Assembly: GCA_016288255.1 (NCBI GenBank)
Contig: JAEEYS010000158.1
Span: 1 to 14,928, forward strand
DNA length: 14,928 nucleotides
DNA from: Bacillota bacterium
Lineage (GTDB): Bacteria; Bacillota; Tb-RUG-66
Direction of reading: 5' to 3'
Shown here piece by piece: positions 1,080 through 9,586 of this stretch (position 1 is its first letter; each line of letters begins with the position of its first letter). Under the pieces are notes generated by a model that saw only the letters and a program-made list of their open reading frames with translations, had not been told where the DNA came from and searched no databases. The position numbers and the translations under genes were made by a program.

Positions 1080-1133
1080 GTTATCAGATCAAGTATCTAA
1101 AAGTATCATTTGTATCAAGAAAGGAGTTATTTT

Positions 1134-2090
1134 ATGATCATTAAAGCGGTTAAACTCTATGAAAATGGTTTTATGACACAGCCTTTTGCTTTCGGCGGTG
1201 AAGAAGGAATGGAAAAATTTGATCCCTCGGTCAAATATCGTTCCAGCCTTCAAAATTATGTGATTGATACAGGAAAAGAAGTCATTCTTGTGGATACCGG
1301 TATGCCAAAAGGAGTACCTGACGCTGTCCCGGATGAAACCACAATGATTTATATGGGAAGCACGATAAAAGATTATGTCTCTGCCTTAAAAGACGTGGGA
1401 TATGAACCGGAACAGGTCACAAAGATCCTTTTGACCCACAAACATGCCGATCATTCCGGCGAATTGAAAAGTTTCCCCAACGCTAAAATCTACACTTCTC
1501 CCGAAGAAGCAGAAGCAGATGAACTAAAGGGGATCTCTGTCATCCCTGCGCAGTATCAGGACGGCCCTTACTATAATTTTGACGCTTGTGAAAAAATCGC
1601 TGACGGCGTATATTATCTGCCTGCCAAAGGCCACACTACCGGCAACAGTATCGTTATTGCGGAAGATAACGGTTTGTTCTATTTGATCCACGGTGATGTT
1701 ACTTATACGGATGAAGCGCTGTATGAAAATAAGCTTTCTATTGTGTTTGAAGATATCGCTGCTGCAAGAGATACCCTAAATCGTGTCAGAGATTTCGTTC
1801 AGAATCATCCGACGGTATATCTTTCTACGCATACCCCTCTTGGATATGAAAATTTAGAAGCAAAAAAAGTCATTGATTTGAACAATCCGCCGGAAAGTAT
1901 TCCGCCTGTTGCCGTAGAAGCAAAAGAATCCACCGGTAAATATGTATGTTCTATCTGCGGATTCGTTTACGATCCCGCAGTCGGTGATCCGGAACACGGT
2001 ATTCCCGCGGGGACAAAATTTGAAGATCTGCCTGACGACTGGAAATGCCCGCGCTGCAGACAGGCTAAAAGCAATTTTAACAAAGCGTGA
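1134..2090 (+). CDS. Metallo-beta-lactamase-fold hydrolase fused to C-terminal rubredoxin
   Basis: The 318-aa product has two domains. Residues 1 to about 245 are a metallo-beta-lactamase fold resembling the N-acyl-homoserine-lactonase-like branch: VDTG at 53-56, the metal motif HKHADH at 102-107, a further His at 167 (KGH), the bridging Asp at 188 (HGD) and the last His at 233 (STH). Residues 268-318 are a complete rubredoxin with Cys272, Cys275, Cys305 and Cys308 (CSICG and CPRC), which should bind one Fe as an electron carrier. There is no flavodoxin domain between them, so it is not a flavodiiron protein of the usual order. The substrate is unknown; a redox or detoxifying role in an anaerobe is inferred. 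The start is the ATG at 1134, preceded by AAGGAG at 1121-1126, not the in-frame codon 24 bases earlier. It is a single-gene unit with its own promoter and terminator. Confidence 0.88.
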
Positions 2091-2386: not shown

Positions 2387-2815
2387 TCAAATCACATAAT
2401 TATCCGAAAAGTCATTTTCCATCAGATCCGCAATGGTAACACTGTCCAAATATTCATTGATGATCTCATTTAATTTTCCCCACATGGGAAAGGTGGGACA
2501 CCCCGCTACTTTGGCGCAGGGTTTTGCGTCTTGTGCCAAACAGGATACGGGCGCCAGATCGCCTTCCGTCAGTCTTAAAATTTCTCCTATTTTATACTCT
2601 TGCGGTTCTCTGGTCAAACGATATCCGCCCCCTCTTCCGTGCACCCCTTCGATCAAATGATTCTGGGTCAGCACAGGAAGTATTTTTTCAAGATATTTTA
2701 AAGAAATTTCCTGCCGTTTCGCTACATCTTTTAACGGGATATAGCCGCCGTTAAAATGTTCCGCCAAATCGATCATAACATGAAGAGCATATCTGCCCCT
2801 GGTCGAGATCTTCAC
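2387..2815 (-). CDS. Rrf2-family regulator with IscR-like cysteine triad
   Basis: This is a 142-aa Rrf2-family DNA-binding protein. The winged helix covers about residues 1-85: the start reads (V/M)KISTRGRYALHVM, the recognition region is around LKYLEKIL, and the wing is GRGGGYRL at 60-67. Cys92, Cys100 and Cys106 (C-x7-C-x5-C) lie where E. coli IscR has its three [2Fe-2S] ligands, so cluster sensing is likely. The alternative is a CymR-type regulator of cysteine metabolism, but that type lacks such a triad. I chose the GTG at 2813-2815: it begins at the conserved family start and AAGGGGTG lies just upstream. A longer in-frame reading to 2845 adds only a basic stretch that includes this ribosome site. 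It is the last gene of the operon and probably controls the operator at 7840-7868. I do not assign iscR formally because the target regulon is unproven. Confidence 0.9.
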   Translation of the reverse strand: MKISTRGRYALHVMIDLAEHFNGGYIPLKDVAKRQEISLKYLEKILPVLTQNHLIEGVHGRGGGYRLTREPQEYKIGEILRLTEGDLAPVSCLAQDAKPCAKVAGCPTFPMWGKLNEIINEYLDSVTIADLMENDFSDNYVI

Positions 2816-2874
2816 TCTTGCCACCCCTTTCCTTCTTTTGGTCACAATTTCATGAATTTATTTCTCAAAAAGTC

Positions 2875-3939
2875 CTATTTCAAAATCACACCGCCGCCCA
2901 AGACCACATCTTCGTCATAGACTACCGCAGCTTGTCCCGGTGTAATGGCTCTCTGCGGCTGTTCAAAACGGATATGCACCGTTTCTTCACTGGTCGGTAT
3001 TACCGCGGCGGGCTGTTCTTTTTGCCGATACCGAATTTTCACTTTACACCGTATCTCCCTCTTAGGCGCTTTTCCCGAGATCCAATGAAAATCAGCCACA
3101 TCTGTTTCCGACCGAAACAGATCTTCCGCTCTGCCAAGGATCACTTTGTTTTCCGCCGCGCAAATACCGCAAACATAAAACGGCGCGGAAGAAGAAATCC
3201 CCAGCCCTTTTCGCTGTCCTATGGTATAATGGATGATCCCTTTATGCTGTCCCAGAACCGTTCCTTTTTGATCAACAAAATCTCCCGGTAAATAGTTTTT
3301 CCCGGTACGATGTTCTATCATCTTTCCATAATCCCCGTCCGGCACAAAACAAATATCTTGGCTTTCCGGTTTATGGGCATTTAAAAATCCGTTTTCTTCC
3401 GCGATGCCCCGTGTTTCGGATTTGTTTAAGCTGCCCAAAGGGAACAATGTATGCGCAAGCTGTTTTTGCGTCATGGAATACAAAACATAGCTTTGATCTT
3501 TTGTTTCATCCAACGCTTTTTTCAGCACATAGGTATCTCCGTTTTGTTCGATCCGCGCATAATGTCCCGTCACGACCGCATCACAGCCCAATACCATTGC
3601 CCGATCAAACAGTCTGTCGAATTTCATATACCGGTTGCAATCGATACAGGGATTCGGCGTCATTCCTTTCTCATAGCTTTGGATGAATTTTTGGATGACC
3701 TTTTCTCGAAAATCTTCCGTAAAATTAAATACATAATAAGGCATTCCCAGTCTATAAGCTACATTCCGCGCGTCTTCCACATCATCCAAAGAACAGCAGG
3801 TCCTGCCGGAAGGCACTCCTACATCCGCGTTTTCATACAGTTTCATGGTACAGCCGATACAATCGTATCCTTTTTCTTTCATCAAAAAAGCAGCAACACT
3901 GGAATCCACGCCGCCGCTCATTGCAATCAATACTTTCAT
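2875..3939 (-). CDS. mnmA: tRNA-specific 2-thiouridylase MnmA
   Basis: MnmA activates U34 of the Lys, Glu and Gln tRNAs with ATP and inserts sulfur to give s2U34. At 354 aa it has the usual length. The PP-loop motif SGGVDSS is at residues 8-14. The two reactive cysteines are Cys98 (in NPCIDCNR) and Cys197 (in SQDICFVPDGDY), and other family stretches such as TGHYAR, TIGQRKGLG and the C-terminal beta-barrel are present. The start overlaps the hydE stop by four bases (ATGA at 3936-3939), with a GAGGCGG-type ribosome site inside hydE, so the two are probably translationally coupled. Sitting in one operon with a cysteine desulfurase suggests direct sulfur supply by the neighbouring NifS/IscS, as for YrvO-MnmA in Bacillus (family knowledge); no Tus relay genes are seen here. 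Confidence 0.97.
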   Translation of the reverse strand: MKVLIAMSGGVDSSVAAFLMKEKGYDCIGCTMKLYENADVGVPSGRTCCSLDDVEDARNVAYRLGMPYYVFNFTEDFREKVIQKFIQSYEKGMTPNPCIDCNRYMKFDRLFDRAMVLGCDAVVTGHYARIEQNGDTYVLKKALDETKDQSYVLYSMTQKQLAHTLFPLGSLNKSETRGIAEENGFLNAHKPESQDICFVPDGDYGKMIEHRTGKNYLPGDFVDQKGTVLGQHKGIIHYTIGQRKGLGISSSAPFYVCGICAAENKVILGRAEDLFRSETDVADFHWISGKAPKREIRCKVKIRYRQKEQPAAVIPTSEETVHIRFEQPQRAITPGQAAVVYDEDVVLGGGVILK

Positions 3940-5006
3940 TCATTTCCGCCTCTTTTGACATCCCCAATATCTGTCACGATCCGATATCCGATACCGGCCA
4001 CTCTCTGTTCCAAACAGCTTTTGCATTCCGCCGCTTCTTCTCCCGTGCAGATCTTATTTTCATACAGCTCATATTTTTTACGCACCTGTACAGGCGATAA
4101 ATTCGGCATTACAACATTTGCCCCGGCCTCAAGTCCCATTTCTCTGCCTAAAGGATGGATGGTGCCCAGCGCCGTTGTTGCCGGGATCAACGCATAAGGA
4201 AACATCAGCCTGAGAACAGAGATCAAACGAACCGTCAATTTCAAGCTTCCTTTCGGAAACGCGGCAAAAGGCGTTTCCCGATGGGTGATGAAAGGTCCTA
4301 TCCCGATCATGTCCGGTTTCAATTCCTGCATGAATCTTAAATCCGCAACGATATTTTTTGTTGTTTGATAAGGAGACCCTACCATGATCCCCGTGCCTAC
4401 CTGGTATCCGATCTCTTTTAGGTCAAAGAGACATCTTTTTCGATTCGCAAGGCTCAATTCTTTCGGATGCAGTTTATTATAATGCTCTTCTTCCGCTGTT
4501 TCATGGCGAAGAAGATACCGATTCGCGCCCGCGTCAAAATAGGCCTGATAGCTTTCCCTCGGCTTTTCTCCGATAGATAAGGTAATGGCGCAATCCGGAT
4601 AGCCTGTTCGAATGGCGGACACGATATCACAGATCTTTTCATCTGTATAAAAAGGGTCTTCTCCGCCCTGCAGTACAAAAGTACGATACCCAAGAGCATA
4701 TCCCTTTTTACAGCAGGACAAAATTTCCTCTTTTGTCAAGCGATACCGCTCTGCCATACGGTTATCCCGTCTGATTCCGCAGTAATAGCAGTCGTTTTTA
4801 CAATAATTTGTAAATTCGATCAATCCGCGGACATAAATTTGATCTCCGTAAATACTTCTTCTTACCGAATCGGCAGCTGCCGCAAGCGCTTCATCCATCT
4901 TGTCCGTATCCAATAATTCCACCAGCGCGTCGTCGGGCAGATCTTTATCCCGCCGCAAGGCTGCCACCGGATCCCACGTATCATGTATCATCATTTTATT
5001 CACCAT
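3936..5006 (-). CDS. hydE: [FeFe]-hydrogenase maturation radical SAM enzyme HydE
   Basis: HydE is a radical SAM enzyme of H-cluster assembly, acting on the Fe(CO)2(CN)-cysteine product of HydG before HydF loads the hydrogenase. The 356-aa protein has the radical SAM cluster motif at Cys69, Cys73 and Cys76 (IEFTNYCKNDCYYCGIRRDN). Family stretches follow: VLQGGEDPFY, the TLSIGE stretch, RYLLRHETA, MIGIGPFITHRETP and IPATTALGT. Near the C terminus, Cys320-x7-Cys328-x2-Cys331 matches the second, non-essential cluster site known in Thermotoga maritima HydE. BioB and PylB are related, but these stretches favour HydE. The start is uncertain: the ATG at 5006 has no clear ribosome site, while ATG codons at 4994 and 4991 follow a GGTGA. 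It starts 10 bases after iscU and overlaps mnmA by four. No hydF, hydG or hydrogenase gene is in the window, so a separate location or another role is possible. Confidence 0.92.
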   Translation of the reverse strand: MVNKMMIHDTWDPVAALRRDKDLPDDALVELLDTDKMDEALAAAADSVRRSIYGDQIYVRGLIEFTNYCKNDCYYCGIRRDNRMAERYRLTKEEILSCCKKGYALGYRTFVLQGGEDPFYTDEKICDIVSAIRTGYPDCAITLSIGEKPRESYQAYFDAGANRYLLRHETAEEEHYNKLHPKELSLANRKRCLFDLKEIGYQVGTGIMVGSPYQTTKNIVADLRFMQELKPDMIGIGPFITHRETPFAAFPKGSLKLTVRLISVLRLMFPYALIPATTALGTIHPLGREMGLEAGANVVMPNLSPVQVRKKYELYENKICTGEEAAECKSCLEQRVAGIGYRIVTDIGDVKRGGNE

Positions 5007-5016
5007 AATCTATTAT

Positions 5017-5436
5017 TTAGTGTTCATCATCATGAATCACGAACTGGGCAGGATCATATTCGATCCCATTTTTGTCATAATAATCTTTTAATGCCAATTT
5101 GATCGCGTCTTCTGCCAAAACACTGCAGTGCATTTTATGAGCCGGCAGTCCGTCCAATGCTTCCGCGACTGCTTTGTTGGTGATCTGCAGGGTTTCTTGG
5201 ATGGTCTTCCCTTTGATCAGTTCCGTAGCCATAGAGCTGGAAGCAATCGCGCTTCCGCAGCCGAAGGTTTCAAATTTTACATCTGTAATGATGTCATTAT
5301 CGATCTTTAAATAAATCTTCATAATGTCCCCGCAAACAGGATTCCCTACTTCACCGATCCCATCCGCGTTTTCTATGGAACCTACATTCCGCGGATTCCG
5401 GAAATGATCCATTACTTTTTCACTATATAATGCCAT
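5017..5436 (-). CDS. iscU: Iron-sulfur cluster scaffold protein IscU/NifU-N type
   Basis: The 139-aa scaffold builds [2Fe-2S] and [4Fe-4S] clusters from sulfur donated by the desulfurase encoded directly upstream. The three conserved cysteines are Cys35 (NPVCGD, with the conserved Asp37), Cys60 (FGCGSAIASSS) and Cys104 (HCSVLAEDA). The chaperone-binding loop, LPPVK in proteobacterial IscU, reads LPAHK at 97-101; no hscA, hscB or fdx genes accompany it, as is common in Clostridia. It lacks the zinc-ligand insertion of SufU, so the Isc/NifU type is preferred. Its ribosome site GTGAGGTG overlaps the nifS stop codon, and the start is 12 bases after that stop. It is followed by hydE after 10 bases. 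Confidence 0.95.
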   Translation of the reverse strand: MALYSEKVMDHFRNPRNVGSIENADGIGEVGNPVCGDIMKIYLKIDNDIITDVKFETFGCGSAIASSSMATELIKGKTIQETLQITNKAVAEALDGLPAHKMHCSVLAEDAIKLALKDYYDKNGIEYDPAQFVIHDDEH

Positions 5437-5448
5437 ATTGATTGCACC

Positions 5449-6642
5449 TCACTTTAAAAATATATGTTGTCGTTTCCCTGATACCAAGTCTTTCCACAGA
5501 GGAGACATATTTCTCAGATATTCTACAACTTCCGCAACGGATTTGATCATATAGTCGATTTCTTCTTCCGTGATATCTTCGCCAATGGACAGCCGAAGGG
5601 AACCGTGAGCTACTTCATGAGGCCGGCCGATCGCCAACAGTACGTGGCTTGGATCCAATGACCCGGATGTACAGGCACTGCCGGAAGAAGCGGAAATCCC
5701 TTTGTCATCCAAAAGCAGTAAAAGAGATTCTCCTTCGATTCCTTCAAAACAGAAATTCACATTGCCGGGCAAACGGCAGACCGCATCACCGTTTAATTCG
5801 GAATAAGGGATCTGACTTAATCCTTCTATCAATCTGTCCCGCATGGCCACCAGTTTTTTTGTGTTCGCATCCATATTTTGAACTGCCTCTTCCATAGCTG
5901 CAGCCATTCCCATAATGGCAGGCACATTTTCTGTCCCCGCGCGTTTTCCTCTTTCCTGCGCGCCGCCTTCGATCAAGTTGGTAAGACGGATCCCTCTTTT
6001 TACATAAAGGGCGCCGATCCCTTTCGGCCCGTGAAATTTATGCGCGGAAAGGGAGAGCATATCGATATTTTGTTCTTGCACATCGATCGGCAAATGTCCC
6101 ACTGCCTGCACGGCGTCCGTATGGAAAGTGACTCCTTTTTCACGGCAAACTTTGCCGATCTCCGCAATAGGCTGGATCGTTCCGATCTCGTTATTGGCAT
6201 ACATAATGGTCACAAGGCAAGTTTCCGGCCGAATCGCTTCCGCCACTTGTTCCGGTGTTACAAGACCGTTTTGATGCACATCCAAAAGCGTGATATCAAA
6301 TCCTTCTCTTTTCAGCTTGTTTAGAGTATGCAGCACCGCATGATGTTCAAAAGCGGTGGAAATAATATGTTTTTTCCCTTTTCTTTCTCCCAGGCGCGCC
6401 GCGGAAATAATTGCCATGTTATCCGCTTCACTGCCGCCGGAAGTGAATGTGATCTCTTTTGGATCGCATCCCAAACAGAAAGCCACTCGTATTCTGGCGT
6501 CTTCCAATGCTTCTTTTGCTTCCTGCCCAATGGTATAAAGGCTGGAAGGATTTCCGTAAACTTTATCCATGTAAGGCAACATTGACTGTATCGCTGTACG
6601 ACTCATTTTGGTTGTAGCTGCATTGTCCGCATATATTTTCAT
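5449..6642 (-). CDS. nifS: Cysteine desulfurase, NifS/IscS family
   Basis: This PLP enzyme takes sulfur from cysteine as a persulfide and releases alanine. From the ATG at 6642 the protein has 397 aa and starts with the typical [11 protein letters not shown]. The PLP lysine is Lys202 ([11 protein letters not shown]). His100/His101 lie in the cofactor region, and the sulfur-carrying Cys324 sits in [10 protein letters not shown], the long-loop class I form. The C terminus runs past the usual MSPL end by about 16 residues. The ribosome site AAAGGAG is unusually far (16 bases) from this ATG. A GTG at 6675 would put the ribosome site inside the coding region and has no site of its own, so I reject it. 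It is coupled to iscU, and lies downstream of cysK across a hairpin/T-tract. iscS is an equally fair name. Confidence 0.95.
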
Positions 6643-6675
6643 AATGACTTTTTGATAACTCCTTTCCTTCTTCAC

Positions 6676-6714: not shown

Positions 6715-7644
6715 TTAGTCTGCAAACAAAGGTGTCGATAGATACCTGTCCCCCGTATCCGGCAGAAGAACAACGATATTTTTGCCTTTGTTTTCTTCTC
6801 GTTTCGCAAGCTGGATAGCTGCCCATGCTGCCGCGCCGGAGGAGATCCCTACCAAAATACCTTCTTTTTTCCCGATCAGTTTGCCGGTTTCAAACGCGTC
6901 TTCATTGGAAACCGCAATGATCTCATCATAAATATCGGTATTTAATGTTTCGGGAACAAATCCCGCACCAATGCCTTGAATTTTGTGACTTCCAGCAACT
7001 CCGGTAGATAAAACCGCAGAAGAAGCAGGTTCCACCGCTACAATTTTTATATTTGGATTTTTTGATTTTAAATATTCACCAACGCCTGTTATGGTCCCGC
7101 CGGTCCCAACACCGGCCACAAAAATATCCACTTTGCCGTCCGCATCTTCCCAGATTTCCGGTCCTGTGGTTTCTCTGTGCGCTTTCGGGTTTGCCGGATT
7201 GACAAACTGTCCCGGAATAAAACTATTTGGGATCTCCTGCGCCAATTCTTCCGCTTTTTGGATCGCGCCTTTCATTCCCTTTGCCCCTTCTGTCAGCACC
7301 AGATCGGCGCCGTACGCTTTCATCAATTGTCTGCGTTCTACGGACATGGTTTCCGGCATTACGATCACGATCGGATACCCTTTTGCCGCGGCAACAGCAG
7401 CAAGCCCGATCCCTGTATTCCCGGAAGTGGGTTCAATAATGGTCGCACCCGGTTTTAATTTCCCGGACTTTTCAGCATCTTCCACCATCGCTTTTGCGAT
7501 TCTGTCCTTTACCGATCCTGCCGGATTCAAATATTCCAATTTCGCGATCACTTTTGCATTTAAATTTTCTTTTTCCTCAATATGAACAAGTTCCAAAAGA
7601 GGCGTTTTGCCGATCAGCTGATCAGCTGAAGTATATATTGACAT
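6715..7644 (-). CDS. cysK: Cysteine synthase A (O-acetylserine sulfhydrylase)
   Basis: CysK makes L-cysteine from O-acetylserine and sulfide with PLP, in the cytoplasm. The 309-aa protein has the PLP lysine Lys46 in NPAGSVKDR, the substrate loop TSGNTG at 73-78, the phosphate-binding GTGGT at 180-184 and the cofactor-contact region GISSGA at 267-272. All are typical of CysK rather than CysM or cystathionine beta-synthase. I start it at the ATG at 7644 because AAGGAG lies 9 bases upstream (7654-7659). A longer in-frame reading to 7695 would overlap the leader ORF and lacks family similarity. It is first in an operon with the desulfurase, so the enzyme that makes cysteine and the one that consumes it are co-expressed. 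The start lies 20 bases after the stop of the leader ORF. Confidence 0.97.
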
Positions 7645-7664: not shown

Positions 7665-7787
7665 CTATTTTAATTCTTTTTCCCCTGATTGACAAGTTTT
7701 ACTTCTGAGGTTCTCCTCTATGCAACATCGGTGCATACGCTCGTAAAAGCCGTTTCTTTTTAAGTATTTTTGACCTGCAAGATCCAT
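7665..7787 (-). CDS. 40-aa cysteine-containing leader ORF upstream of cysK
   Basis: This short ORF starts with ATG at 7785-7787, preceded six bases away by a perfect AGGAGG (7794-7799), the best ribosome site in the operon. It runs 40 codons to TAG at 7665-7667. The product begins [18 protein letters not shown], is basic and hydrophilic, and has three Cys: two tandem (residues 21-22, codons TGT TGC) and one at 32 (TGT). I recognise no family. It lies wholly in the transcribed leader, after the promoter and operator, and its stop is 20 bases before the cysK start. A leader peptide whose translation reports cysteinyl-tRNA, or a translational coupler, would fit (inference); an ordinary small protein is possible. 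An inverted repeat covers the Cys codons. Confidence 0.7.
7719..7737 (-). repeat. Inverted repeat over the tandem Cys codons of the leader ORF
   Basis: TATGCA and TGCATA (7732-7737 and 7719-7724) can form a 6-bp stem with a 7-base loop. On the - strand the loop ends with the first Cys codon (TGT) and the second Cys codon (TGC) opens the 3' arm, so a ribosome stalled there would disrupt it. A 4-bp GAGG/CCTC hairpin (7707-7718) follows. There is no T tract, so this is not a terminator by itself. Confidence 0.5.
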
Positions 7788-7804
7788 ATCAATCCTCCTG
7801 CTGC

Positions 7805-7839: not shown

Positions 7840-7868
7840 TATTAACCTACCTACCCACTAGGTTGATA
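7840..7868. promoter_or_regulatory. Candidate operator of the isc operon
   Basis: The palindrome TAT-n-AACCTA-(9 bases)-TAGGTT-n-ATA spans 7840-7868 and overlaps the predicted transcription start (about 7864), a classical repressor position. Rrf2-family dimers bind long interrupted palindromes of this kind, and the only regulator gene in the operon is the Rrf2 gene at 2387-2815. Assignment to that protein is inference. Confidence 0.65.
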
Positions 7869-7870
7869 TT

Positions 7871-7899
7871 ATAATAACACGAGCAGCACCTTTTGTCAA
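7871..7899 (-). promoter_or_regulatory. Promoter of the cysK-nifS-iscU-hydE-mnmA-rrf2 operon
   Basis: On the - strand the -35 box is a perfect TTGACA (7894-7899). With a 17-base spacer the -10 box is TATTAT (7871-7876); an overlapping TATAAT (7868-7873) has a 20-base spacer. A/T-rich sequence lies just upstream of the -35 box. The 5' leader to cysK would be about 220 bases. Confidence 0.8.
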
Positions 7900-8136: not shown

Positions 8137-9114
8137 TTAAAAAGGGCTGTTCAACCCTGCTTTTTCTATCAGCTCCTGCAGAAGACTGACATCTTTTCCG
8201 CAGTCTTTGATAGGGTGCCCTGCAAAGGCCGACGCTTCCTCTGCCGTTACTGTAAGCGTGCGCACCGTTCCTTCCACCTGATATTCATAGATCACTTCGT
8301 CCAGGTTGTCGATCACAGACAGCATCACATAGGCAAAAGACCGCATCGCTTTTTCTTTGGCGCTCCCCATTCCCGATGAGATCCTTTGTTCCAAAACGAT
8401 CTTCCATCCGTAAGGCTGCTGACCGGTCAGCAGTTCATTGCTGTAGGAGCCCAGCACCTCACTGATCCGAAGCGCCTGTGCCGTTTGATTGTTTGCCGGC
8501 ATATCTCCCATATATTCATGTCCGGTTTGATACACCTCTGACGTGATTTTTGAAATATTCTTTCCTTTGTCCCACAAAATACGATCATTCAACCGCACCT
8601 GCACAATATCTTCTTGTGCCGCATATTCGGAAGAAAACTCCCCTTTGTGAAACGGGCTTGCCAAAACCGCTTTTGTTGTTCCCGTTACCACGCCATCTTT
8701 TTCTTCATACCGAATGGTCGAAACACCGTGCACACTGTCCATGACCGTTCCGTTCAAAGTCATATAACGGTTATCCACCTTGACGTCACAGGTGATCCAG
8801 TCCCCATACAGGTAATCTCCCACAATATATAATCGGGTAAACAATACGCCGCCAATGATGAGAAGCGCGGCAAGCAGACTGCCTGCGATCACTTTCAGGT
8901 TCTTTTTTCTGTTTTTCTTTAAAAAATCGATCTCTTTTTGATCCTTTTCACTGATCGGCGCCGCTTCCGCATGCTTCATGTTTTCCATTGCCTGTTTGCA
9001 GTCCGCGCAGCCATCCATATGTTCTTCCACCAGCTGATTCGTCGTCTGACTGGTCAATCCGTCAATATAAGACGGCAATAAATCCAAAATCGTATCACAA
9101 GGTATTTTATTCAT
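8137..9114 (-). CDS. Zinc-type transmembrane anti-sigma factor
   Basis: The 325-aa protein has an N-terminal anti-sigma zinc-finger domain: Cys6, then His32-x3-Cys36-x2-Cys39 (EEHMDGCADC), in the common Clostridial form that opens with a CDTILDLLPSYIDG-like helix. One transmembrane helix follows at about 75-97. The remaining 228 residues or so should be outside the membrane; I do not recognise a domain in them, and they presumably carry the sensing role. The gene overlaps the sigma gene by eight bases (9107-9114), which implies coupled translation and balanced amounts. By family knowledge it holds the adjacent ECF sigma factor inactive until an envelope signal or redox change at the zinc site frees it. 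The signal is not visible from sequence. Confidence 0.88.
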   Translation of the reverse strand: MNKIPCDTILDLLPSYIDGLTSQTTNQLVEEHMDGCADCKQAMENMKHAEAAPISEKDQKEIDFLKKNRKKNLKVIAGSLLAALLIIGGVLFTRLYIVGDYLYGDWITCDVKVDNRYMTLNGTVMDSVHGVSTIRYEEKDGVVTGTTKAVLASPFHKGEFSSEYAAQEDIVQVRLNDRILWDKGKNISKITSEVYQTGHEYMGDMPANNQTAQALRISEVLGSYSNELLTGQQPYGWKIVLEQRISSGMGSAKEKAMRSFAYVMLSVIDNLDEVIYEYQVEGTVRTLTVTAEEASAFAGHPIKDCGKDVSLLQELIEKAGLNSPF

Positions 9115-9586
9115 CCTGATCCATATCCTTTCTTAATTTTTCTTTTCCTCGATAGAAAGTAACCCGTGCCCAGTTTTCCGTTTTTCCAAAAATGTCTCCG
9201 ATCTCACGGAATGATAAAGTGCCAAAGATCCGAAGATACAAGATCTCGCGGAACGGTTCCGGACACAGATGCAGTCTTTTTAAAAGGTCCACTCGGCTTA
9301 TGGATTCCAACGCGTCTTTTTCCGCGGATTCCGTTAAAACATCCTGCTCATTGATCTCTTCCAGCGCGGGATGCTTGCGACGATAGGACCAAAGCTGTCT
9401 TTTCGCGATAGCGCAGAGCCAAGTGGAGATCGAAGAGCTGCCATCAAAACGGTCAATGCTTCGGATCGCTTGATAAAAAGTCTCTTGGGTCAATTCTTCC
9501 GCCAAAGCGCTGTCGTGAGTCATAGATAGCAGATATTGATAGACTGTTCTGGCATATTTTTGATAGATCTCTTCCATCTGCTGCAC
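9107..9586 (-). CDS. ECF (sigma-70 family, group IV) RNA polymerase sigma factor
   Basis: This is a 159-aa two-domain sigma factor. Region 2 covers about residues 8-75, with AEELTQETFYQAIRSIDRF and the STWLCAIAKRQLWSYRRK segment that recognises the -10 element. Region 4 covers about 105-155, with LRIFGTLSFREIGDIFGKTENWARVTFYRGKEKL as the helix-turn-helix for the -35 box. The start is GTG at 9584-9586, with a perfect AGGAGG seven bases upstream (9594-9599); the internal ATG at residue 4 is less well placed. It is first in a two-gene operon with its anti-sigma factor. Such pairs are normally self-regulated, and a candidate promoter lies at 9617-9645. Target genes are unknown. Confidence 0.93.
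   Translation of the reverse strand: MQQMEEIYQKYARTVYQYLLSMTHDSALAEELTQETFYQAIRSIDRFDGSSSISTWLCAIAKRQLWSYRRKHPALEEINEQDVLTESAEKDALESISRVDLLKRLHLCPEPFREILYLRIFGTLSFREIGDIFGKTENWARVTFYRGKEKLRKDMDQDE

Follow-up and report, generated by a model that had tools for sequence, protein, structure and literature searches.

The short open reading frame (ORF) upstream of cysK in the window (the whole stretch of 14,928 nucleotides analysed here) is a member of a recurrent family of upstream ORFs (uORFs) that carry a Shine-Dalgarno (SD) sequence and precede cysK, mainly in Oscillospiraceae-type, uncultured, and gut Clostridia. Conserved within these uORFs is an in-frame codon pair, CGA-TGT, often located after a promoter with an inverted-repeat box. 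We consider it probable that the uORF acts in cis on cysK, with a ribosome pausing at CGA-UGU under Cys-tRNA shortage and an output that does not require a hairpin switch. A preliminary description of this DNA had proposed a cysteine leader ORF that senses charged tRNA in the classic way; a cysteine leader ORF is supported by our results, while a classic attenuator is not. The coordinates of all features are collected in Table 1.

Table 1. Features of the cysK leader and downstream genes in the window
Feature	Position	Strand	Basis
Leader ORF (uORF), 40 codons	7665..7787	(-)	ORF translation and family statistics
Shine-Dalgarno AGGAGG of the leader ORF	7794..7799	(-)	Sequence
Conserved core CGATGTTG, i.e., CGA TGT TG(C), Arg20-Cys21-Cys22	7723..7730	(-)	Family comparison
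Extended sigma-70-like promoter: TTGACA (from 7899), 17-nt spacer, TG-TATTAT (to 7871)	7871..7899	(-)	Consensus scan, 11/12 matches
Inverted repeat, core AACCTA-N9-TAGGTT, candidate operator, directly past the -10 box	7840..7868	(-)	
cysK, cysteine synthase A, 309 aa	6715..7644	(-)	TIGR01139, 463.8 bits, cutoff 350.95
nifS-type cysteine desulfurase	5449..6675	(-)	TIGR03402, 549.9 bits, cutoff 530.75
nifU-type scaffold protein	5017..5436	(-)	PF01592
Rrf2-family regulator, candidate ligand of the operator	2387..2845	(-)	TIGR00738, 123.9 bits, cutoff 73.3

The 40-codon ORF was found as first described, with six bases between AGGAGG and its ATG, tandem Cys codons (TGT at 7727 to 7725 and TGC at 7724 to 7722), a third Cys codon (TGT, 7694 to 7692), and 20 bases between its stop and the cysK ATG at 7644. 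Its placement in a leader also holds, with a predicted promoter upstream and cysK downstream. The codon pair occupies codons 20 and 21; with 19 codons separating them, ATG and motif are farther apart than in any other member. Over its full length, the peptide is not conserved, a search of 5.77 billion proteins returning a single match, 98% identical (A4T), on a contig of 630 bases. Since the whole-peptide search gave this near-copy only, the comparison was moved to the leaders of cysK relatives. NCBIfam held no family for the two leader peptides tried, and Rfam matched no known RNA in the window.

Two sets of leaders were used. The first derived from the best 80 CysK matches listed, two of which (L039 and L084) were nearly devoid of upstream DNA. 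An SD-led ORF with Arg-Cys followed by Cys or a stop occurred in 8 of these 80 leaders and in none on the other strand, and shuffles that preserved base composition alone gave 0.26; without the SD condition, there were 14, compared to 6/80 on the other strand and 3.4 in shuffles of the same kind. The peptides (MKRC, MDYLYLRRC, MNYFKCHERCCHIKHPKTVLYY, and MYVLTNDESNGKRRCCL, each followed directly by a stop) had little in common beyond Arg-Cys, apart from those of L032, L034, and L059, near relatives with mutually similar peptides, while at the nucleotide level they shared CGATGTTG. The second set came from a CysK search of 295 genomes of the order of R. flavefaciens ND2009, of which 250 had a match; 30 loci, 100 further listed places, and loci from the earlier set were read, and about ten low-scoring listed places as well as unlisted ones were left out. 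Together, the two sets gave 213 distinct cysK leaders, among which L159 was the sole one selected by motif, all others coming from, or being also listed by, the CysK searches.

The exact CGATGTTG was present within 170 nt of the cysK start in 28 of the 213 leaders, whereas 200 scrambled motifs, preserving base composition alone, gave a mean of 0.04 and a maximum of 1, and the other strand gave 0/213 (stretch from -160 to -30). In 27 of the 28 motif-bearing leaders, it was in frame in an SD-led uORF, so the loss of frame in relatives that the preliminary description had named as a refutation was not observed; in the 28th, L044, the motif was in frame with an ATG that had an SD-like AAAGG very near it. 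There were 10 one-mismatch sites in the 213 leaders, 6 of them in frame, including 4 with CGATGTCG (L036, L202, L208, and L227). A motif-blind scan that took every SD-ATG uORF of 3 to 45 codons, ignoring Cys, yielded 56 uORFs in 52 leaders; CGA-TGT was the commonest codon pair (28/56 uORFs) and accounted for 28 of the 31 Arg-Cys pairs. The minus-strand control gave 30 uORFs with no Arg-Cys and a Cys content of 2.8%, compared to 7.9% in the leader uORFs. The recurrence of in-frame Arg-Cys codons in the cysK leaders of other species is thus beyond chance.

These figures bear directly on one alternative, a chance ORF without function. It would fit the motif being missing from most cysK leaders, a peptide lacking a homologue beyond one near-copy, and the closest CysK relative of the window among the matches listed, L021 (88%), the nearest SD-led uORF of which (MVHKEAKYKVAVQSCKSL) has one Cys and no Arg-Cys. 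Against the family statistics, with 28/213 exact motifs (scrambled mean of 0.04) and 28/31 Arg-Cys pairs written CGA-TGT, we regard it as extremely unlikely. The conservation expected for a cysteine leader ORF was found in part: a constrained Cys codon exists in some of the relatives, but 185 of the 213 leaders are without the exact motif. Separately, L021 has a 46-residue signal-peptide-like, Cys-rich ORF at -402 to -264 from cysK, with RCC written CGATGTTGC (at -333); this distant frame, about 340 nt upstream and one of the eight Arg-Cys ORFs, may be unrelated to the leader family.

The codon choice was uncommon relative to that of long genes. In ORFs of at least 200 codons from 10 family loci, CGA was the rarest Arg codon (4.8% of 1281), TGT was used 113 times versus 319 for TGC, and, with the window added, 2 of the 31 Arg-Cys pairs in such ORFs were CGA-TGT. 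For the window alone, CGA (13/149 Arg codons of its long ORFs) was tied with AGG as the rarest. Genome G532, which carries a uORF (L193), had 51 listed tRNA places, of which 49 genes were read; its Arg anticodons were TCT, CCT, ACG, and CCG, with no TCG, and it had one tRNA-Cys (GCA). With this set, the ACG tRNA should decode CGA, and TGT should be decoded by wobble. The ACG anticodon of tRNA-Arg is generally modified to inosine. Both codons thus appear to be wobble-read, CGA through the ACG/inosine tRNA-Arg and UGU through a G.U pair with the GCA tRNA-Cys. In the window genome (75% complete), the 33 tRNA places gave only TCT and CCG as Arg anticodons, and a CGA reader was not seen among them.

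In order to describe the anatomy of the element, we used 32 members, from which L339 had been dropped as doubtful and in which motif positions 1 to 6 are invariant by construction. The third codon was TGA in 14, TGC in 12, CGA in 2, and CGC, TGG, TGT, or AGA in one each, i.e., it could mean Cys, stop, Trp, or Arg, while base 8 was G in 32/32, whatever the third codon encoded. Neither Cys richness nor tandem Cys codons are conserved, with a TGA stop after CGA TGT in 14/32 members; the tandem TGT TGC emphasized earlier is real in the window, but the conserved feature of the family is CGA TGT instead. The bases neighboring the motif held little information, and outside Arg-Cys the peptide was free in length and sequence, from MKRC plus stop to the 40-mer of the window. 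The exact codons and the constant G at position 8 go beyond simple Cys-tRNA sensing and hint at a constraint at the nucleotide level.

Such a constraint could also belong to a protein-binding site in RNA or DNA, with CGAUGUYG merely lying inside an ORF. The conservation of bases 7 and 8 regardless of the meaning of the third codon would agree with this; however, a site of that kind would be in frame by chance in at most about one third of cases, compared to the 27/28 found within SD-led uORFs, which makes it very improbable indeed. Distances speak to another alternative, start-stop coupling, in which ribosomes loaded by the uORF would reinitiate at cysK, with the Cys codon being incidental. 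It has been proposed that leader genes can increase the translation of what follows them (PMC4833913), and in the window 20 nt lie between the uORF stop and cysK. Across the 32 members, however, the distance from uORF stop to cysK varied from an overlap of 4 up to 135 nt (quartiles of 37 to 65), while the motif lay 59 to 87 nt before cysK in 27/32 (median of 70.5, quartiles of 69 to 84). Moreover, the conserved unit is the codon pair itself, and only some members have overlapping frames that stay open from the motif to cysK, so that coupling seems unlikely to us. Frameshifting and an ATG-TTG restart were rejected because the other frames are likewise open to cysK in only some members.

A recognizable promoter was present in 28 of the 32 members, with an exact CCTA-N-TAGG box beside it in 15 of these 28 and a box with up to one mismatch in 23; control arm orders reached at most 11 exact and 18 with one mismatch, the highest being the overlapping ACCT-AGGT. 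Among all 139 promoter-bearing leaders, the exact CCTA-N5..11-TAGG occurred in 31 (other palindromic arm orders, 0 to 14), and a box with one mismatch was common (76, with 1 to 55 for other arm orders). The uORF was found by script in 28 of the 45 promoter leaders with 110 to 240 nt from the -10 box to the start, a count that rises to 30 with L234 and L227 read by eye, and the CGA-TGT uORF in 0 of the 92 shorter ones, a contrast that is in part built in, as a short leader has little space for a uORF that ends 60 nt before cysK. Within 250 nt, though possibly upstream of the promoter, 11 of these 92 short leaders had some SD-ATG uORF, none with CGA-TGT. A CysK tree of 153 rows contained 31 rows with the uORF, a distribution that required at least 19 changes, 6 of them forced by supported branches. 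The label was clustered, since shuffles required a mean of 28.5 changes and 0/500 were as low as 19. The window fell in a supported group of 64 rows together with five other carriers (L202, L208, L209, L218, and L036), all of which have RCC or RCR and none a stop after RC.

The box at the window promoter is arranged as in Rrf2 (CymR/IscR-type) regulons and is a candidate operator, putatively of the Rrf2 type given the Rrf2 gene downstream. An Rrf2 repressor bound to it would add a second, transcriptional layer. The window regulator is neither CymR nor IscR proper by the equivalog profiles, on which it scored below cutoff (IscR, 114.7 versus 207.55; CymR, 99.6 versus 195). The genes after cysK are, in order, the nifS-type desulfurase (408 codons counted from GTG, the true start being probably further in), nifU, hydE, a gene that looks mnmA-like in translation, and the Rrf2 regulator. 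Given this set, the earlier label of an isc operon downstream of cysK is only approximate. The gene hydE, for the radical SAM maturase of the hydrogenase H cluster (3936 to 5006, minus strand), lies inside the cysK-nifS-nifU-mnmA-Rrf2 string, a placement that links hydrogenase maturation with Fe-S and cysteine genes. Directly upstream of the cysK operon (8137 to 9586, minus strand), a likely ECF sigma factor (Sigma70_r2) precedes a possible anti-sigma protein with a membrane anchor, the latter judged from its translation. Elsewhere in the window, a metallo-beta-lactamase-like protein with an apparent rubredoxin-like end (CSICG...CPRCR) is encoded at 1110 to 2090 (plus strand), as judged from translation only.

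Further members and other target genes were sought by pattern. The box pattern gave 23 matches in 22 of 398 genomes of the window's phylum, none of which showed on inspection a box followed by an SD and a uORF; the reversed box, used as a control, matched in about as many genomes. An SD-ATG-CGATGTTG search of 31 genomes led, besides known cysK leaders, to nine new stretches, of which only L159 was before cysK. In the 295 genomes, 38 had pattern matches, and the 32 loci read contained 11 in-frame SD uORFs, nine of them before cysK (L170 and L172 were not); all nine were also in the motif-free CysK listing. A search for box plus motif in 197 genomes gave seven in-frame uORF matches by eye, all of them known cysK leaders, and 12 others that were discarded as chance by appearance. 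The family of Mogibacterium (119 genomes, 104 with cysK, 30 leaders read) provided one clear member, L336. A doubtful distant match from the same family, L339, was excluded from the member, promoter/box, and tree counts. In Mogibacterium pumilum (L026, identical to L333), the leader ORF MVYAPGKPCRCYK has AGA TGT, a possible codon variant.

A class-wide pattern search found matches in 81 of 391 genomes, from which 30 loci and 11 stretches were read, the remaining matches being inspected as motif strings only. Eight in-frame short SD uORFs were found among these 41 loci, seven of them in stretches that had been picked by eye for the box (L441 to L447), and six preceded cysK. At L432:1580, the uORF MEHTKFYFNRCCLSFSLLLNIDRM and a box stand before a metY-type gene (a PLP enzyme of Cys/Met metabolism), and regulation may cover the sulfhydrylase step as a whole. 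At L444:211, a box and an in-frame uORF, MTQLYKRCRMRMCKLTVNRNKKI (CGA TGT CGA), are followed by a gene (284 to 1474) for a secreted protein with weak Ig-like matches; its genome, G946, has a uORF before cysK as well, and the L444 uORF is either chance or a new target. With six of eight before cysK and one before a metY-type gene, the element goes mainly with cysteine synthesis, L444 being an unexplained exception.

In contrast to these regularities of sequence, no common RNA structure was predicted. The coding strand had no terminator-like site between 6500 and 8500, and the window leader folded like its shuffles (z of -0.15). From the motif onward, the predicted folds of 33 leaders (L339 included) had a mean z of +0.45 (against shuffles preserving base composition alone), and the predicted accessibility of the cysK SD was 0.50 free and 0.52 with the motif covered. 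A general hairpin on the motif was not found, hairpins being present in some members only (e.g., L183 and L034). No T-box was matched by Rfam in the window or in 18 loci, where the sole riboswitch match was a SAM riboswitch at L209, on the far side of cysK. This absence of predicted structure argues against hairpin attenuation and against sequestration of the SD. A nascent-chain arrest peptide was also rejected, as the peptides differ beyond Arg-Cys, and a member that consists of MKRC argues against arrest by tunnel sensing.

Classic transcription attenuation, in which the position of the ribosome on Cys codons would decide whether an antiterminator or an intrinsic terminator forms before cysK, has in its favor the tandem Cys codons of the window, the fact that cysK makes the end product, and the description of such leaders for cys operons and cysS elsewhere (PMC1262725, PMC8632094). 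Apart from the terminator scan, the folding scores, and the SD accessibility given above, a stop directly after one Cys codon in 14/32 members speaks against it, and we find it very unlikely: a short SD-led ORF with end-product codons exists as had been claimed, but the terminator and antiterminator hairpins were not found by prediction. A translation-dependent cleavage of the mRNA, with a Rae1/YacP-type nuclease or another A-site factor cutting the in-frame CGA-UGU-YG and thereby tuning cysK to cysteine, would explain a fixed frame together with fixed exact nucleotides. Rae1 is described as a ribosome-associated A-site endoribonuclease (PMC8266666), and an NYN_YacP domain was found in 5 of 6 genomes searched, including that of the window (183-residue frame). 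However, in 4 of these 5 genomes, the domain is in a frame of about 850 to 945 aa rather than a stand-alone Rae1, G532 has no NYN_YacP match despite its uORF, and recognition of CGA-UGU-YG by Rae1 is a guess. Cleavage as the whole explanation is thus improbable in our opinion, although the fixed nucleotides leave room for a role in in-ribosome cleavage or decoding kinetics.

The lack of structure and the existence of MKRC plus stop favor pausing at CGA-UGU, which would affect cysK by protecting the mRNA or by way of ribosome delivery. We infer from the sequences that the leader ORF would sense charged tRNA-Cys, and the pause, the cysteine response, and the change in cysK output are proposed on the same basis. 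When Cys-tRNA is short, the ribosome would pause while CGA occupies the P site and the A site over UGU is empty, and since both codons are apparently wobble-read, the pair would be an unusually sensitive brake. CGA-CGA pairs are described as inhibitory in yeast (PMC6301793), a comparison that serves as a lead only. As no hairpin switch is visible, the paused ribosome would presumably act directly on the short, unstructured leader; in the simplest outputs, it would protect the mRNA against decay at its 5' end or alter ribosome delivery to cysK, about 70 nt downstream of the pause, and cysK output would rise at low cysteine. For this output step, the predicted folds offered no supporting structure. 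A frequent stop as the third codon, leaving one Cys codon only versus several in classic sensors, counts against pausing. More tentatively, and with rather less than even confidence, we propose that a single invariant, doubly wobble-read CGA-UGU makes an amino acid sensor without a hairpin; its sensitivity would depend on the exact nucleotides rather than on how many Cys codons there are, and its output would come from control by the paused ribosome or from in-ribosome cleavage of the unstructured leader.

If the pausing mechanism is true, Clostridia would have another route to control cysteine synthesis besides T-boxes and CymR-type repressors. In this family, conservation appears to act on a codon pair rather than on an amino acid or a peptide, and nature offers the case repeatedly; it raises a testable claim about decoding, namely, why the rare CGA must directly precede UGU. 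Without an NCBIfam family for the two peptides or an Rfam family for the leader, annotation pipelines would miss these uORFs, which a simple rule finds. The family is apparently undescribed: a literature search of titles and the beginnings of abstracts gave no description of CGA-TGT cysK uORFs, which is weak evidence of novelty given that few subscription journals were covered and that the lists of results were of limited length.

Several known systems resemble it in part. Gene and signal are shared with the Cys-specific T-box of Clostridium perfringens cysK, which senses through tRNA-Cys (PMC2940859); there, the RNA binds the tRNA directly and prefers a TGC specifier, while the uORF family has no T-box and a fixed TGT. 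The uORFC-8-2 motif before cysS in Rhodobacterales (PMC8632094) shares tandem Cys codons in a uORF but is described with two stems and a terminal U run as terminator, neither of which was seen here, and the gene is cysK instead of cysS. Actinobacterial cys leader peptides (PMC1262725) place Cys codons close to the stop and lack a conserved terminator hairpin, as in the present family; they belong to another phylum and contain runs of Cys codons, and the available text of that source mentions no fixed Arg codon. Finally, mycobacterial cysteine operons are preceded by polycysteine leaderless uORFs that are described as a cysteine-responsive attenuator (Canestrari et al. 2020, cited in PMC13236596), again short ORFs with Cys codons before genes of cysteine biosynthesis. 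The mycobacterial uORFs are leaderless and, by the title of that work, polycysteine, whereas the window ORF has an SD and a predicted leader, and the cysK family, from a different phylum and with no sequestering structure found, is SD-led, often has one or two Cys codons, and is marked by its fixed CGA-TGT.
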